From contig WYBN01000010.1 of the NCBI GenBank assembly GCA_011525875.1, forward strand, positions 1 through 64,000: DNA of 64,000 bases, written 5' to 3'. Position numbers and translations under genes: made by a program. The DNA is from Melioribacteraceae bacterium. Its GTDB lineage: Bacteria > Bacteroidota > Ignavibacteria > Ignavibacteriales > Melioribacteraceae. The notes beneath the pieces are model-generated. The model searched no databases and was not told the DNA's origin. It saw only the letters and a program-made list of their open reading frames with translations. This document shows positions 21,872 to 29,625 of the stretch, piece after piece (within the stretch, counting starts at the first letter, position 1; every line of letters begins with the position of its first letter).

Positions 21872-21900
21872 AAAAAAAAGCCGCCCTTTTGGGCGGCTTT
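21872..21900. terminator. bidirectional Rho-independent terminator
   Basis: AAAGCCGCCC and GGGCGGCTTT pair around a TTTT loop. An A-tract on the left provides a long T-tract for minus-strand transcripts. It separates the epimerase from the convergent cytochrome operon and ends both. Confidence 0.9.
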
Positions 21901-21924
21901 CAATCGCAGAGTTAAGATATTATA

Positions 21925-22809
21925 TTAATTACCGAAAGTATTGGCTAAACCGTTGATGTGTTTTGTTTTGTCAATGATATTACCTTGACTGTCAACAACG
22001 CCCTGATGGCAGTTTGCACATTCGTTTAATGAGTAAGTTCCGGCATGTCCGTTTGGCAGAGCGCTTACGAGCTGTCCGTTTTCAATCTTTCCGTGGCAGG
22101 TTCCGCAAGCAGCTTGTGTGCCGTCCACTTTATTCCATATAGGCGTAAAATTATTTCCGGTCATAAAATCTTCGGTATAAATCCAGGATGCGGCGGATTC
22201 TGCTTTGGCAAATTTAAAATTTCCGTGGCAGTATGTATTAGAGCAAGTCAGATTATCAAAACTGTAGCCGGCATTTCCTTCGGTATCGGCAAAAGCATTG
22301 AACTTCATTTCCGCAGGCAATCCGTCAATGTGCGCAAATACAAATTTTTCTTCAGTCGGATTAGACATATCATGGCATGAACTGCATCTTGAAGCAGCCG
22401 CAAGAGAGTTATCGTATAAGTGGGCTACATGGGCGCCGACACCTTTAGAAGCTGCAGAAATATTATTATCGAGATCGGTCGGAGGTGCAATTCGTGAAGG
22501 ATCGGTAAAATCGCCGTGACAGGTATTGCATGCTTCGGGTCCGTTTGTATTGTTGTGACAGCCCAAACATGACGAGCCAGTAACGCCCCCGGAGTAATCG
22601 CTGCCGTGGCATTCAATACAGTGTTTCAAATCCCAATTTATGTACTTAAAGACATGCGAATGAAAATTCTGTGAACCGGGTTCGGCAAAACCTTTAGAGT
22701 GAACCGAAACGGGTTCGGGCTTGGTTAAATCTTCCTGCAATTCGCTGCAAGCCGAAGCGATCAAAAAGAGCAGAAGAGAAGCGATCAAATATTTTATGAC
22801 AGATTTCAT
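21925..22809 (-). CDS. heptaheme c-type cytochrome lipoprotein (six CXXCH, one CX4CH)
   Basis: A 294-aa lipoprotein (lipobox LIASAC, Cys21), so likely anchored to the outer membrane. Heme sites in order: CIECH, CLGCH, CNTCH, CSSCH, CSNTYCH (a CX4CH site), CGTCH and CANCH. The mixture of CXXCH with CX4CH resembles Geobacter-type CxxxxCH/CxxCH cytochromes. It is the last gene of a four-gene minus-strand set with a c554-like cytochrome, a beta-barrel and a 14-heme cytochrome. A role as the surface or outer-leaflet electron carrier is inferred. The gap to the 14-heme gene is 33 nt; a strong terminator follows. Confidence 0.85.
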   Translation of the reverse strand: MKSVIKYLIASLLLFLIASACSELQEDLTKPEPVSVHSKGFAEPGSQNFHSHVFKYINWDLKHCIECHGSDYSGGVTGSSCLGCHNNTNGPEACNTCHGDFTDPSRIAPPTDLDNNISAASKGVGAHVAHLYDNSLAAASRCSSCHDMSNPTEEKFVFAHIDGLPAEMKFNAFADTEGNAGYSFDNLTCSNTYCHGNFKFAKAESAASWIYTEDFMTGNNFTPIWNKVDGTQAACGTCHGKIENGQLVSALPNGHAGTYSLNECANCHQGVVDSQGNIIDKTKHINGLANTFGN

Positions 22810-22842
22810 ATTTAAACCCAGAGTTTAAATTATATTCAATTT

Positions 22843-24042
22843 TTATTTATGACAGTAACCGCAGAAACCCTGCCCTGCAATGCCTGCTCGAGCGCCGGCA
22901 TCGTTATGGCAGTCGAAACATACAGAGCCTTTGTCGCTGTGCCAATCGCCGTTGACGGATTTCATGTACCCGCTCTGATGAGTTTTGGGGTTAGTTCCTT
23001 TAATTCCGTCCGGGTCTACATGGCAGAGAACACATGAAGCATCGGCGCCGTAGGTGTCATGGCAAGATGCACATCTTTCAATATCCCTTCTTGCCAATAC
23101 TGCATGAGACCCGCCGCCCGAGCCGACTCCGAATCGTATAAAATCCGGCTGGCGGTGTGAAAGGGGAACCATGCCTTCAAGAGCAAAATCACCCCCGCCG
23201 CCTTGATGGCATTCAGCACAGAACGAAGAAGTTTCATGGCATGTCTGGCATTCCATGTTTTTTCCTTTAGCGTCAACTCCGTGTGTGAATCGGTAATTCA
23301 GATCATGAACACGGTTTAATTGCTGAACTTTAGCGTTATCTGTGTAGCGGTGCGGAGAATAAGGCGTGTAAAAATCACGTGAACTGTTTGAAGCGTCAAG
23401 TCTGTTTGTAGAGACATGGCACGATTCGCAGAAATCATTTTCGTGGCACATAGCGCATTCGGCATCTTCTTTTTGAGCATGAAATTTGTGATTATCAAAA
23501 AAGCTAAGCACTTTGTGATCCTGCGGGATTAAATCGGCAGTTGAAATATGACAAGCTTCACAAGCCATCGAAGCAACGGAATAATCGTTATGACATGAAT
23601 AGCATGAGTTCATTGGAGGATGAGGCTGCGATGCTTCATAGCTGTAATCAACATCGGCAAAGCCTTTGTGGCAGTCTTCGCAATTAAGACCCTGCGCAGA
23701 ATGAAATGAATGATCATAAATTAACGATGGATTGGATTTAATGAACGGCTCGTATATTTCATCGTAATGGCACGTTTGACATTGCGAGTCGTCTTCAACG
23801 TCATGGCAGCTTGCACAAACGTCTTTTTCAGGCAGCAGTCTGTCGTTTAAGCTTTTACTAGAAACAACGTTTGTGTGGCATGCGCTGCAGTCAAACTCCA
23901 ATTCTGCATGGAGTTTGTGCGAGAATTTAATAATGTCTTTGTTATTCTTACCGCTGTCGCTCAATACGGCTTTGCTCGAAGCCGAAAAAATGAAAGCAAG
24001 AATAAAGACAGCTGTCAATATGTAAATGTATTTTGTTTTCAT
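22843..24042 (-). CDS. 14-heme c-type cytochrome
   Basis: A 399-aa exported cytochrome with a signal peptide (YIYILTAVFILAFIFSASSKA) and fourteen CXXCH heme-binding motifs spread through the chain, from CSACH near residue 52 to CGYCH at the C-terminus. Several distal His residues precede motifs in the cytochrome c3/c7 style (FSHKLHAELEFDCSACH, YDHSFHSAQGLNCEDCH, DNHKFHAQKEDAECAMCH). It most likely acts as a periplasmic or barrel-inserted electron wire. Its ATG lies 1 nt after the TAG of the upstream barrel gene, so the two are probably translationally coupled. No catalytic heme signature (such as CXXCK) was seen. Confidence 0.9.
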   Translation of the reverse strand: MKTKYIYILTAVFILAFIFSASSKAVLSDSGKNNKDIIKFSHKLHAELEFDCSACHTNVVSSKSLNDRLLPEKDVCASCHDVEDDSQCQTCHYDEIYEPFIKSNPSLIYDHSFHSAQGLNCEDCHKGFADVDYSYEASQPHPPMNSCYSCHNDYSVASMACEACHISTADLIPQDHKVLSFFDNHKFHAQKEDAECAMCHENDFCESCHVSTNRLDASNSSRDFYTPYSPHRYTDNAKVQQLNRVHDLNYRFTHGVDAKGKNMECQTCHETSSFCAECHQGGGGDFALEGMVPLSHRQPDFIRFGVGSGGGSHAVLARRDIERCASCHDTYGADASCVLCHVDPDGIKGTNPKTHQSGYMKSVNGDWHSDKGSVCFDCHNDAGARAGIAGQGFCGYCHK

Positions 24043-24043
24043 A

Positions 24044-25315
24044 CTACATCACATCTAAGTTAGTATTGAACCAGTAATTAATTTTAAAGAAGAACCGCAG
24101 GTCATTATTATATATCTTATTGTTAAAATACTGTCCTTGCAGATCGAACGAAAGCGCTCTGAAAGGTCTTACGTTAACTCCGGCAAGAGCTGAAATAATG
24201 TTATTCGTTTCTGCATCGGGGGATAATTTGTAAGATGTATATGCAATTCCGGCGGAAGGGGTAAGGTATCCGTCGAAATAAGACCTTGCAGAGTATAAAG
24301 ATACCGCATCAAGTTCGCCGGCATATCCAAATGTTTTTCTGTAATGAATCGAACCCCAATTAGAAATCAAACCAACACCGAGTCTTTGTGCATCCTCGTC
24401 TTCATAGGTAACATGTGCAAATTTACCTGATACGGTAAAATTATCGTCAATCTTATAATCCAGTCCGCCTTCAATTTCGTGCGTGTTGCCGTAGTTGAAT
24501 ACCGAAAATATAGAATTATAGCGTATAGTCGGTTCGCGGAAATTATAATAAAAATTAATTCCGAGATCTTTAATCTGCTCGTATCTTCCGCTAAGTTCAA
24601 ATTTGGAAAGCGTTTCGAAATTTAAGTCGTAATCAACCTTTGTGTTTATATCGAAAACGTCGTTCATATAATACGAAGCTTCAGCGGAAGCAAATCTGAA
24701 TTGATTAGAATTTCTCCTGATTAAAACCGTTATCGGGTCATAGTTCTCATCTAATCTAATGGCTTCATATTCAAGCGGTTTGAAATTCTTATCAATGTAA
24801 GAAAAACCGAATCTGAAATTGTCAACGACATTTGCGGTAAGCTTACCGCCAAGCACATAATCATTGTTGAAGTCGTTGCTGATATCAAATTTTTGATAAG
24901 CGGGAACATTGCCCCCAAAGAAGCCGTTTAGTGTAAGTCCCCATTTTTTTAAATCCAGACTTATTCCATCGTAAACTCCGCCTGCAATGCCGTTAATTAA
25001 TGACTGACGTCCCAGCTTGAAAGTTGCAATATCCCAAATATTTCTTCCCTCAAAATAAAAATTGTAGAATCTTACCCGTGGATCTTTATCGAGCGGTTTG
25101 AGCAGATCGGCTTCCATGCTGAATCGTGTGCGCAAAGCAAATTGCTTGCTGTTTAAGTTCATTACGAACGTTTGATACTGCCTCAGAAATGTTTCGGAGT
25201 TGTTCTCCGTATCAAATCGTTCGAAAGAATACAGACTGTATGAAACGCGCCCGTTAAAATTTTGAGCGGCTGCAACAGCTGATATTAGCAATAAAACAAA
25301 TAAAATCTTTTTCAT
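24044..25315 (-). CDS. outer-membrane beta-barrel protein in the cytochrome cluster
   Basis: A 423-aa protein with a signal peptide (ILFVLLLISAVAAAQ) and alternating amphipathic strands throughout (RVSYSLYSFERF, FALRTRFSMEADLL, FNLYFEGRNIWDIATFKLGRQSL-like segments, and LRFFFKINYWFNTNLDVM at the end). No CXXCH is present. Length and composition suggest roughly 16-20 strands, similar in size to the porin of Geobacter porin-cytochrome complexes and smaller than MtrB. Its position between a tetraheme and a 14-heme cytochrome supports a porin sheath role. A generic porin or structural barrel is the alternative. Confidence 0.75.
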   Translation of the reverse strand: MKKILFVLLLISAVAAAQNFNGRVSYSLYSFERFDTENNSETFLRQYQTFVMNLNSKQFALRTRFSMEADLLKPLDKDPRVRFYNFYFEGRNIWDIATFKLGRQSLINGIAGGVYDGISLDLKKWGLTLNGFFGGNVPAYQKFDISNDFNNDYVLGGKLTANVVDNFRFGFSYIDKNFKPLEYEAIRLDENYDPITVLIRRNSNQFRFASAEASYYMNDVFDINTKVDYDLNFETLSKFELSGRYEQIKDLGINFYYNFREPTIRYNSIFSVFNYGNTHEIEGGLDYKIDDNFTVSGKFAHVTYEDEDAQRLGVGLISNWGSIHYRKTFGYAGELDAVSLYSARSYFDGYLTPSAGIAYTSYKLSPDAETNNIISALAGVNVRPFRALSFDLQGQYFNNKIYNNDLRFFFKINYWFNTNLDVM

Positions 25316-25331
25316 TTTCTATCCGCTAAGT

Positions 25332-25895
25332 TTATTTAGCAGTGTTAGGATTTGGATGAGCAACCTTAGGATATTGAACAGCGAAATCAAATTCGTTGTG
25401 CGGATGTCCTTCGGGTTTTTTATCCATTGCATGACAAGTTAAACACATATTAGAAATTCCTTCGTCATTCTCCCATACAACAAGCCCGTTTTTAACAGAC
25501 TCTTCGCGGCTTTTCATGACTTTAAGGGATTTATAACCTTGACCGGCGCCGTGGCAGGCTTCGCATCCTACCCCTTCGGTATGACTAAATTTAGCATCAT
25601 TCAAAGAAGCATCGGAGCCGTAACCGGTTGCATGGCATGACAAACAATTTTCATTTTCAACGGCTTTGCCGCCGGCTAATTTATCGGCATCTTCGCTCTT
25701 AAGAGTCTCATAAGCTTTGGCGTGATCGCTTTCCTTCCAAATCTTAAGCTGATTGCCGTCGGCATCTTTCTTATGGCACATTCCACATTTTTCCGAGCCG
25801 GTATAACCGAATTTTGTTTCATCCGCACTTAAGTAAAATGCGAGCGAGGAAAGTACCATTCCAAATATGAGTATTAATGAAATTTTGTTGTTCAT
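25332..25895 (-). CDS. tetraheme cytochrome, c554 family
   Basis: A 187-aa exported cytochrome with a signal peptide (SLILIFGMVLSSLAFYLSA) and four CXXCH sites: CGMCH, CLSCH, CEACH and CLTCH. The start of the mature protein (FGYTGSEKCGMCHKKDADGNQLKIWKESDHAKAYETL) and GVGCEACHGAGQGY closely resemble cytochrome c554/NrfB-like tetraheme proteins. It is probably a periplasmic carrier handing electrons to the downstream barrel-cytochrome pair. It is first in the operon, 16 nt before the barrel gene, with GGAGG-type ribosome-binding sequence upstream of the ATG at 25895. Confidence 0.88.
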   Translation of the reverse strand: MNNKISLILIFGMVLSSLAFYLSADETKFGYTGSEKCGMCHKKDADGNQLKIWKESDHAKAYETLKSEDADKLAGGKAVENENCLSCHATGYGSDASLNDAKFSHTEGVGCEACHGAGQGYKSLKVMKSREESVKNGLVVWENDEGISNMCLTCHAMDKKPEGHPHNEFDFAVQYPKVAHPNPNTAK

Positions 25896-26267
25896 GGCTG
25901 CCTCCTAAATAGATAGATAATTTGAAAATATATCTGAATTATTTTTTCGTTGTCAATATAATAAAAGAGAATAAAAACATCCAAATTTCTTTTTGTGTCA
26001 TACAAAGAAAAAATTCTAATTAAAAAAATCCAGTTAATTCCCACAACATGTCCTTTATTTCCATTCTATTTAATTCAGATTTTGTTCAATACTCCGGGAA
26101 TATTAAATTTTGTTTTTAAGAGCCATTTATTTTATTTTGATAATCAGAATCTATTATACAATTCGTTTTTCTATGACACTTATGAATTTTCAGCCAAAAG
26201 TTTTTTCTCTTCATAAAAATAAATTATATACTCATACCTTGTCAGAATTAAAAATAGGAGGGTCTGA
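25896..26267. other. divergent promoter region between cytochrome operon and sdhCAB
   Basis: 372 bp, very AT-rich and without a believable gene. Promoters for both operons should lie here, but no motif was assigned with confidence. A strong ribosome-binding site (AGGAGG, near 26258) sits before sdhC. Confidence 0.5.
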
Positions 26268-26936
26268 ATGGGCTGGCTTCTTGAAAGCTTAAATTCATCT
26301 TTAGGCAAAAAATTTATAATGGCTGTAACTGGCATCTGCTTGATCCTGTTTTTGATCATTCATTTGATTAACAATCTTACTTTATTCTTAGGCCCCGAAG
26401 TATTTAACAATGTTGTTAAGAATCTTGAGACAATTAAACCTTTGGTGCGAGTGGTTGAAGTAATTCTTTTGTTGATATTTATTTTTCATATCTTTAATGG
26501 TATCAGGCTCTGGATTGAAAACAGGCAAGCAAGACCCGAGCGTTATGCAGTAAATGGTTCTTCAAAGAACGCGGATGTTTTCTCGCGCACTATGGTGCAA
26601 ACTGGGAGTGTCATTTTCGTTTTTCTTGTCGTTCATCTTCAAACATTTTGGTATGCATTTAATTTCGGCAGTCCTCTGACAGATCTTCACAAATATTATG
26701 AATTTGTTGCCGATTCATTTAAAAGCTATGCATACTCAGGGTTTTACATCGCAGCCATGATAATTCTCGGCGTTCATCTCAATCACGGATTTCAGAGCGC
26801 ATTTCAAACGTTCGGCTGGAATCACAAGAAATACTTTTCGTTCATAAAGATACTCGGAGCAGTTTACTCCATAATTATGGCGGTTGGTTTTGGTTCAATA
26901 CCGGTGTACTTTTTATTTTTCTACGGAGGTAACTAA
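26268..26936 (+). CDS. sdhC: succinate dehydrogenase/fumarate reductase cytochrome b subunit
   Basis: A 222-aa membrane anchor with five predicted transmembrane helices that binds hemes b and quinone for complex II. Candidate heme ligands are His32 ([11 protein letters not shown]), His74 ([10 protein letters not shown]), His123 (VVHLQTFWY) and His170 or His173 ([12 protein letters not shown]). This is the single-subunit diheme form (cytochrome b558 family) typical of Bacteroidota and epsilonproteobacterial fumarate reductases. AGGAGG precedes the ATG at 26268. The stop overlaps the sdhA start (TAATG). Confidence 0.93.
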
Positions 26937-28849
26937 TGGCAACGATACTTAATGCAAAAATTCCGGAAGGAAATATATCGGAAAAGTGGACAAATCATAA
27001 GTTCAACATGAAGTTGATTAATCCGGCTAATAAGAGAAAATATCAGATAATAGTAGTAGGCACCGGACTTGCCGGCGCTTCGGCTGCAGCATCACTCGGC
27101 GAATTGGGGTATAACGTTTCGGCTTTTACATATCACGATAGCGCCAGAAGAGCTCACAGTATAGCGGCTCAGGGAGGGATTAACGCAGCGAAGAATTATC
27201 AAAACGACGGGGATTCGGTTTATAGATTATTTTACGATACAGTTAAAGGCGGAGATTACAGATCGCGCGAAGCCAATGTATACAGGCTTGCCGAGGTAAG
27301 CGGCAATATTATGGATCAATGTGTGGCGCAGGGCGTGCCCTTTGCAAGAGAATACGGCGGGCTGCTCGATAATCGCTCCTTTGGGGGAGCGCAGGTATCA
27401 AGAACTTTTTATGCAAAAGGTCAAACCGGTCAACAGCTCCTTTTGGGCGCATACAGTGCATTGAGCAGACAGGTCGGGAAGGAAAAGGTTAAACTGCACA
27501 CGCACAAAGAAATGCTCGAACTTGTTGTAGTTGACGGAATAGCAAAGGGAATAATTACTCGGGATTTATTAACCGGGGAAATTGAAAGCCACAGCGCGCA
27601 TGCAGTTATTCTTGCCACCGGCGGATATGCAAATGTTTATTTTCTTTCGACCAATGCTATGAATTGCAATACCACTGCGATCTGGCGGGCTCATAAGAAA
27701 GGAGCTCTCTTTGCGAATCCATGCTTCACACAAATTCACCCGACATGTTTGCCGGTTCATGGGGAGGGACAGTCTAAGTTGACTTTAATGAGTGAGAGTT
27801 TAAGAAATGACGGACGCGTTTGGGTTTCAAAAATTAAAAAAGATATGCGAGAACCAAATGATATTCCCGAAGAAGAAAGGGATTATTACTTAGAAAGAAA
27901 ATATCCTTCATTTGGCAACTTATCGCCGAGAGATATTTCGTCAAGAAGTGCAAAAGAAGTTGTTGACGACGGAAGAGGCGTCAAAGGCGGAGAAGCAGTC
28001 TACCTTGATTTCAGAGACGCAATAAATAGACTTGGCAAAAATGCTATAGAGGAAAAATACGGCAATCTGTTCGAGATATACGAAACGATTACAGGCGACA
28101 ATCCTTACAATATGCCGATGAAAATCTATCCTGCGCCTCATTATACTATGGGTGGTCTCTGGGTAGATTATAATTTGATGAGCACAATTCCGGGGCTATT
28201 TGTCTTAGGCGAGGCAAACTTCTCCGATCACGGGGCTAACAGATTGGGTGCCAGCGCATTGATGCAAGGGCTCGCTGACGGGTATTTTGTTATTCCTTAT
28301 ACTATCGGGAATTATCTTGCATCTGATAAACCCGAACTGATCCCCGCCGATCACGATCAATTCAAAAAAGATAAATCCGGGATTGAAGATTTAACTAAAA
28401 AACTAATTTCGATTAACGGCAAGCATACTGTTGATGAATTACATAAAAAGCTGGGCAGGATAATGTGGAACAAGGTCGGAATGGCCCGCAATGAAAAACG
28501 ATTGAATGAAGCGATTGACGAAATCAGAAATTTAAGAGAAGAATTTTGGAAGAACGTAAAGGTAGTGGGTTCTGCTGAAGGGCTTAATCAAACCCTCGAA
28601 AGAGCCGGAAGAGTTGCTGATTATCTCGAACTTGGCGAACTGATGGCATACGACGCGCTTGAAAGAAAAGAATCATGCGGCGGTCACTTCCGGGAAGAAT
28701 ATCAAACTGAAGACGGCGAAGCCTTGAGAGACGATCAGAATTATTCATACGTTTCTGCATGGGAGTTCAAGGAACTCGGCAAATGGGAACATCACAAAGA
28801 ACCACTTGAATTCGAATATGTTAAATTAGCCACCAGGAGTTACAAATAA
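26936..28849 (+). CDS. sdhA: succinate dehydrogenase/fumarate reductase flavoprotein subunit
   Basis: A 637-aa catalytic subunit oxidising succinate to fumarate or the reverse. The dinucleotide-binding motif is [15 protein letters not shown] (residues about 40-54). The covalent FAD histidine is His74 in [11 protein letters not shown]. Active-site regions include [10 protein letters not shown] and [12 protein letters not shown], then [17 protein letters not shown]. The C-terminus carries the helical domain ([22 protein letters not shown]). It starts within the sdhC stop and ends in another TAATG overlap with sdhB, indicating coupled 1:1:1 synthesis. Direction in vivo cannot be read from sequence. 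Confidence 0.95.
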
Positions 28850-29625
28850 TGAGCGACGGCAGAATAAATCTAAAATTAAAAATTTGGAAACAGTCGGGGC
28901 CAAATTTCCCCGGATCATTCGCAGATTTTGAAGTTCAAGTATCACCGGACGCATCATTCCTTGAGATGCTTGATGAATTGAATAACGATCTTGAAAGTAA
29001 AGGGTTGGAGCCCGTAGCTTTTGAAAGCGACTGCAGAGAGGGTATATGCGGAACATGCGGGCTTGTCATTAACGGGCAGCCTCACGGTCCCATTCCCAAA
29101 ATAGCGACATGCCAGCTGCACATGCGAAATTTTAAGGATGAGGACACAATTTGGGTTGAACCATTCAGAGCGAAAGCTTTTCCGGTTGTAAAAGACCTGA
29201 TTGTAAAACGCTCTGCTTTCGATAAAATAATGTACGCAGGAGGATTTGTTTCTGTTAATACCGGAGGCGTACCTGACGCAAATGCAATACTAATTCCGAA
29301 AGAAAAAGCTGCTGAATCGTTTGATGCGGCAGCCTGCATCGGATGTGGAGCTTGCGTAGCTGCATGTAAAAATGCCTCGGCAATGTTATTTGTTAGTGCT
29401 AAAGTTTCACAGTTCGCTCTGCTTCCACAAGGGCAGCCTGAAAGATACGAACGGGTTCAAAAAATGGTAAAAGTTATGGATGATTTGGGTTTTGGCAGCT
29501 GCACAAATACTTATGCCTGCGAGGCGGAGTGCCCTAAAGGAATTTCGGTAAGAAATATTGCAAGGATGAACCGGGATTATTTTGTTGCAAAGGTTAAATC
29601 CGCCAATCTTGAAGTTGAGGTATAA
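28849..29625 (+). CDS. sdhB: succinate dehydrogenase/fumarate reductase iron-sulfur subunit
   Basis: A 258-aa subunit passing electrons from FAD to quinone. [2Fe-2S] ligands are Cys62, Cys67 and Cys70 (CREGICGTC) and probably Cys88 (ATCQLHM). The [4Fe-4S] motif is [11 protein letters not shown] (about residues 164-174), followed by a Cys group with [14 protein letters not shown] for the [3Fe-4S] cluster. This spacing fits the B-type/Bacteroidota complex II. It is last in the operon; a strong terminator follows. Confidence 0.95.

Follow-up and report, generated by a model that had tools for sequence, protein, structure and literature searches.

We analysed a four-gene operon on the minus strand of a 64,000-nucleotide stretch of DNA (the window) from a Melioribacteraceae bacterium (assembly GCA_011525875.1, contig WYBN01000010.1, positions 1 to 64,000). 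The operon spans positions 21925-25895 and encodes, in order, a tetraheme c554-type cytochrome (c4; 25332-25895, 187 amino acids, four CxxCH motifs), a predicted outer-membrane β-barrel (24044-25315, 423 amino acids, no cysteine), a 14-heme c-type cytochrome (c14; 22843-24042, 399 amino acids, 14 CxxCH motifs) and a lipobox-bearing heptaheme cytochrome, which we call the fourth protein (21925-22809, 294 amino acids, six CxxCH motifs and one Cx4CH motif). The genes are separated by 16, 1 and 33 nt, and the three cytochromes contribute 4, 14 and 7 heme sites, 25 in total, while the barrel has none. Directly 3′ of the final gene lies an intrinsic-terminator-like hairpin (21876-21901, minus strand; 11 pairs, seven of them G-C, and a T tail). 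Upstream of c4, a promoter-like site (25927-25956, minus strand; TTGACA, 18 nt, TATATT) ends 31 nt 5′ of the first ATG. It is the region's best match to the consensus (11/12), and the region contains 26 promoter-like matches compared to 24.1 in shuffled sequences, a count not above shuffled expectation. Coordinates and a motif scan confirmed the operon, heme total, gaps and terminator described in the original prediction, which had been made from the DNA alone and read the genes as a porin-cytochrome conduit.

Examination of related genomes revealed that the barrel and c14 are inseparable. Of 58 genomes of the order, 48, among them the window's own, carried a barrel homologue; 48 also carried a c14 homologue (E ≤ 1e-40), and the two co-occurred without exception (48 genomes with both, 10 with neither). 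This strict co-occurrence is new support for a conduit. Among 395 genomes drawn from the phylum, the barrel profile matched 57, all of them the window's own or from its family, order or class.

To describe synteny, we used 48 order-level loci from 47 genomes (the window's excluded), 20 class-level loci and 80 named loci. The last are the best 80 of 152 barrel matches in genome_contigs; they overlap the order-level set and were counted apart. Named carriers were Ignavibacteria-type records such as Melioribacteraceae metagenome-assembled genomes and Stygiobacter electus strain 09-Me, and some were titled only Bacteroidetes, Chlorobiota or bacterium. The barrel alignment search found these relatives; a single-query search of genome_contigs with c14 confirmed none. 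Counting only loci with room for the gene, c14 lay downstream of the barrel in 44/44 order-level, 20/20 class-level and 75/75 named loci. A fourth multiheme gene followed in 41/42 order-level loci (41/41 with Cx4CH), in all 20 class-level loci (all with Cx4CH) and in 67/68 named loci. The gene order, on whose conservation the original prediction had made its reading depend, is thus kept in relatives. The barrel frame was recovered in 48/48 order-level loci, though only in part in G017, whose frame breaks close to its start, and in G042 (two contig-end halves), and single in-frame stops in some barrel matches look like terminal stops within the aligned range. The c14 frame had 14 motifs in 43 of 47 order-level cases; the others had 13, 12, 10 and 6 and lay at contig ends, except for that at locus L070. 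At class level, 17 had 14 motifs and three had 12. A four-motif cytochrome gene preceded the barrel by no more than 2.5 kb in 43/46 order-level loci with room and in 12/20 class-level loci. Since the downstream order is near-invariant and the tetraheme gene is variable, the core of the system is the barrel, c14 and the Cx4CH cytochrome, with c4 a frequent addition.

All 28 cysteines of c14 fall within CxxCH motifs, and the 14 motifs and 12 further histidines were invariant in 64 aligned sequences picked from the best 120 matches. Its profile matched PDB chain 3ov0 (E 1.3e-20) over the N-terminal half, and its score against the decaheme MtrA/DmsE-type family TIGR03508 was 22.3 bits, below the cut-off of 192.2. 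Fourteen hemes fall within the range (5-14) of periplasmic cytochromes of porin-cytochrome (Pcc) systems. We consider c14 a likely trans-membrane heme wire, which would be lodged in the barrel.

The AlphaFold2 model of the barrel has approximately 22 main strands and no plug domain, predicting an outer-membrane barrel whose strand number falls in the Pcc range of 18-22 trans-outer-membrane segments. The top structural matches in a VIA-align search were TonB-dependent receptors. A cytochrome-conduit barrel was absent from the best 50 Foldseek and best 50 VIA-align matches, which excludes nothing. The barrel had no Pfam match up to E 1, its profile gave one unrelated match to PDB sequences (E 0.049), and PF11854 (MtrB_PioB) had no match anywhere in the window's genome. 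Among the 58 genomes, the sole strong MtrB/PioB-family match (L204, G047:C19:2233-4635; E 1.4e-64) was in a genome that also has the barrel conduit, with a c14 of 12 motifs and 347 amino acids (L070).

Both remaining cytochromes have recognizable relatives. c4 matched PF13435 (74 bits, cut-off 20.8), and its nearest solved relative is cytochrome c-554 (1bvb, E 5.4e-10); it is a likely periplasmic electron carrier to the conduit. The fourth protein, which matched the CxxxxCH/CxxCH domain family TIGR01904 (35.6 bits, cut-off 27), has CxxCH motifs at residues 64, 81, 94, 142, 235 and 264, Cx4CH (CSNTYCH) at residue 189 and the lipobox LIASAC. Past the lipid cysteine, fourth proteins share the consensus C-S-(D/E)-L-x-(E/D)-D, and of 74 with a lipobox, 66 have serine at +2; acidic residues occupy +3 (76%), +6 (55%) and +7 (68%). 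As a sequence pattern, this resembles the Bacteroidetes lipoprotein export signals SDDFE and SDDDD given in the available text of PMC5080379. The fourth protein is probably the cell-surface arm, which would be anchored in the outer membrane and exposed.

Together, the gene order and spacing, the heme motifs and lipobox, and the conservation and co-occurrence in relatives, all of them direct observations, support the conduit reading, and we regard it as very probable that the four genes encode a Pcc-type outer-membrane electron conduit. As in Pcc systems, a gene for a porin, here a predicted barrel, adjoins that for a periplasmic multiheme cytochrome, across a 1-nt gap, and the adjacent fourth gene, with its lipobox and seven motifs, would supply the outer-membrane cytochrome.

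Several observations weigh against this reading. Ten of the 58 order genomes have no conduit (G003, G004, G006, G018, G024, G028, G029, G033, G037 and G041), and six of these are at least 90% complete. Since the 57 barrel-positive genomes of the phylum draw fall in eleven families but at least 17 class genomes outside the order (families f6, f7, f9, f11, f12 and f13) have no match, the conduit is broadly distributed in the class without being universal. The four-motif gene is missing from the 2.5 kb upstream in 3/46 order-level and 8/20 class-level loci, although it lies further up in some. Foldseek matches the barrel first to generic barrels such as ushers and AlgE, and the AlphaFold2 model of c14 is poor (pLDDT 56.5). 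A lipobox was recognized in 33/41 order-level and 9/20 class-level fourth proteins, and positions +3 to +7 averaged 2.19 acidic residues across 62 fourth proteins versus 1.54 across a weak and small control of 35 other lipoproteins with unassigned topology. Finally, we found no expression or biochemical data on the conduit in the main texts of published accounts, as far as these were available.

Gene sets of this kind were in print by 2014. In the available text of Shi et al. 2014 (PMC4245776), the Ignavibacterium album cluster consists of an associated periplasmic cytochrome (IALB_1840), a porin distantly related to the paper's porin groups (IALB_1839), a 400-amino-acid cytochrome with 14 motifs (IALB_1838), at that time the largest known among Pcc periplasmic cytochromes, and an outer-membrane cytochrome with an atypical heme motif (IALB_1837). 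Matched by description and not by alignment, these parts and their locus-tag order are as in the window's operon. This layout is also seen in the one-contig genome G035, whose c14 is 400 amino acids long. The accessible portions of PMC6137239 and PMC7399161 place such porins in further Ignavibacteria, the latter reporting OmbB-like porins by its own hidden Markov model. With the I. album cluster and these further porins already published, the gene-set kind is a known one. The words porin, multiheme and extracellular are absent from the main text, as available, of the Melioribacter roseus multi-omics paper (PMC5492636), and we found no paper on Stygiobacter.

As the original prediction had stated, order and heme counts differ from those of the Mtr and Geobacter systems. 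OmbB-OmaB-OmcB of Geobacter sulfurreducens likewise combines a porin with periplasmic and outer-membrane multiheme cytochromes (PMC4245776, in part), the porins being likened by description; its cytochromes have 8 and 12 hemes, compared to 14 and 7 plus a tetraheme gene in the window. Geobacter ExtABCD, according to the text available of PMC6148476, is a four-gene conduit with a 12-heme periplasmic cytochrome, a barrel and outer lipoprotein cytochromes; its outer part is variable, as here, but its order and heme numbers (12, barrel, 5, 12) differ. Shewanella MtrCAB follows the same logic of barrel, heme wire and outer lipoprotein, with 10 hemes compared to 14 motifs here, and with an MtrB of 28 motifs as stated in the accessible part of PMC4245776, compared to the approximately 22 predicted strands of the window's barrel, which has no MtrB_PioB match.

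The fourth protein varies in length. After removal of proteins identical over the last 150 residues, 129 fourth proteins were reduced to 108, most of which have one or more diheme units followed by a constant five-heme domain that includes Cx4CH. The unit is approximately 54 residues long and reads roughly HxxGxxxxxSxxFHGKYxxxxxxxxxxCxxCHGxxxxGGxxxxxCxxCHxxI. The window's protein has one N-terminal unit (approximately residues 37-90), then the C-terminal pentaheme domain. Of 88 proteins from order-level and named loci, among them the window's, 55 had one unit, 20 had two, six had three, two had six and one had 12, and in four no unit was recognized. Among proteins with at least one unit, each further unit added 51.6 residues to the length (r 0.94). 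Units were counted by the last of three successive rules, the second of which gave a heme total of 5 + 2k, for k units, in 67 of the 108 proteins. Under the final rule this total held in 74/88 order-level and named proteins and in 11/20 class-level proteins; thus, the rule is good without being exact. The longest array, at L031 (G031:C32:68000-86000), is in a protein of 874 amino acids with 12 units and 29 heme motifs, compared to the window's 294 amino acids. At two further loci, L032 (G008) and L181 (G278), the fourth protein repeats the Cx4CH domain rather than the diheme unit, a second mode of lengthening.

We tentatively propose, at less than even odds, that the surface cytochrome is an extendable wire: the barrel and c14 remain fixed in many families of the class, and the fourth protein would vary by units of approximately 54 amino acids (1-12 copies, 7-29 hemes), tuning electron reach by repeat number and not by swapping proteins. 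This would set the group apart from Geobacter, where, in the published text available, a non-orthologous protein usually takes the place of the outer lipoprotein; the loci described here keep a single family, which grows by diheme units. The array could instead be extra heme capacity that stores charge, or the product of neutral drift, with no longer conductive arm, an account that we consider doubtful. It would fit the tree of c14 (88 rows; a quick tree with the shuffled control absent), on which at least 16 changes of copy number occur. Since one unit is the commonest state (55/88), long arrays are not required, which also fits storage or drift. On the other side, the units of the long arrays at L031 and L045 retain both heme motifs and the FHG...GG framework; thus, they look maintained. 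Identity between units averaged 28% within one protein and 26% between proteins, under a crude definition that also caught pairs in the C-terminal domain. In three individual proteins the within-protein values were 43% (L031, mean), 35% (L045, best pair 78%) and 22% (L034). These values suggest recent unit duplication in L031 and L045 only. Diheme-array variation in the fourth protein is apparently unreported: we found no published description of such an array in an Ignavibacteria conduit, including in the available text of PMC7399161, PMC12977616 and PMC6148476. The first of these, in its accessible part, describes heme numbers that vary among homologous cytochromes of Burkholderiales and Anaerolineales.

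To place the conduit in a respiratory route, we searched the window's genome (81% complete, 14 contigs), in which a scan for heme patterns gave 169 sites. A CbcL-like protein (C5:31602-34076, 824 amino acids, 16 CxxCH motifs) has a C-terminal cytochrome b561 domain, matching PF01292 at residues 547-725 (66.8 bits, cut-off 30.1); a crude hydropathy scan gave it five C-terminal hydrophobic segments, compared to six helices in the CbcL/MtrH/MtoC type. An ImcH-like protein (C14:3211-4719, 502 amino acids, six CxxCH motifs and a Cx3CH, CGELCH) matched PF03264 (49.5 bits, cut-off 24.1) and has hydrophobic segments starting at residues 20, 46 and 99 by the same crude scan. Judged from its sequence, it would fit the description of ImcH: three N-terminal helices, similarity to NapC/NirT and approximately seven heme motifs including CX3CH. 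Relatives (BLASTP score over 150 bits, alignment covering half of the query or more, anywhere in the fetched locus) of the CbcL-like protein were present in at least 18/48 order-level and 11/20 class-level conduit loci, and those of the ImcH-like protein in at least 3/48 and 9/20. A lipobox protein on contig C8 with 10+1 heme motifs had relatives in at least 10/48 order-level and 0/20 class-level loci. Because fetched loci were at most approximately 18 kb and some were limited by contig ends, these counts are lower bounds.

We infer an outward route in which c14 is inserted in the barrel. Electrons would pass from the menaquinol pool to the CbcL-like and ImcH-like proteins encoded elsewhere in the genome and then, via c4 or other periplasmic cytochromes, to c14. 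Inside the plugless barrel of approximately 22 strands, c14 would carry them across the outer membrane to the lipid-anchored fourth cytochrome, probably on the surface; how far this protein reaches would depend on how many diheme units precede its pentaheme domain, one in the window. Most likely, the route would serve to respire Fe(III) or a different acceptor outside the cell. An inward conduit, in which Fe(II), a cathode or a partner cell would supply the quinone pool with electrons as in Mto and Pio systems, would suit the CbcL-like protein, but we judge it improbable: the genome also encodes the ImcH-like protein, and in the text available Fe(III) reducers are the sole reported source of ImcH homologues. 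M. roseus, a relative in culture, lives heterotrophically and may pass electrons to Fe(III), according to the accessible part of PMC3534657.

That the barrel is an ordinary solute porin beside purely periplasmic cytochromes that serve a different respiration, for example the turnover of nitrite or hydroxylamine, would fit the c554-like first gene, whose family is known from nitrification, and the generic porins found by Foldseek, but is very improbable: c4 scored 52.7 bits against the CycA equivalog, far under the cut-off of 400, the operon has no reductase gene, its fourth product has a lipobox and, unlike a general porin, the barrel never parted from c14 in the 58 genomes. The original prediction had named a generic porin and a periplasmic nitrite, nitrate or tetrathionate system as outcomes that would count against it; the barrel does not behave as a stand-alone porin, and the operon's cytochromes reach no equivalog cut-off for such systems.

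If the outward conduit reading is true, extracellular respiration would be close to a core trait of the order, given the presence of the gene set in 48 of 58 genomes, always with c14. Ignavibacteria have been recorded in sediments, aquifers, hot springs and anode biofilms, the last reported in PMC7399161 (PMC7399161 and PMC6137239, both in part), and the barrel and c14 gene set is a more specific marker than counts of multiheme proteins. The diheme array would provide a natural length series for the effect of heme-wire length on extracellular electron transfer.

Three plus-strand genes (26268-29625), read by eye as complex II, diverge from the operon. The back-to-back position noted in the original prediction is correct but incidental: since a homologue of frdA was present in only 5/48 order-level and 0/20 class-level loci, the adjacency is not part of the system, and we rejected complex II as a functional partner.

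Two other loci of the window's genome are described here as separate observations. The CbcL-like gene (L198, G000:C5:28000-38000) is on a different contig from the conduit, and the genes that come after it look CRISPR-associated by eye. At L202, a gene for a 13-heme cytochrome (G000:C13:21001-22110) adjoins genes for NrfD-like (PF03916) and 4Fe-4S subunits; the set scores below the Hmc equivalog cut-offs, resembles Hmc-type quinone-linked complexes and adjoins genes that, by eye, resemble a two-component system.

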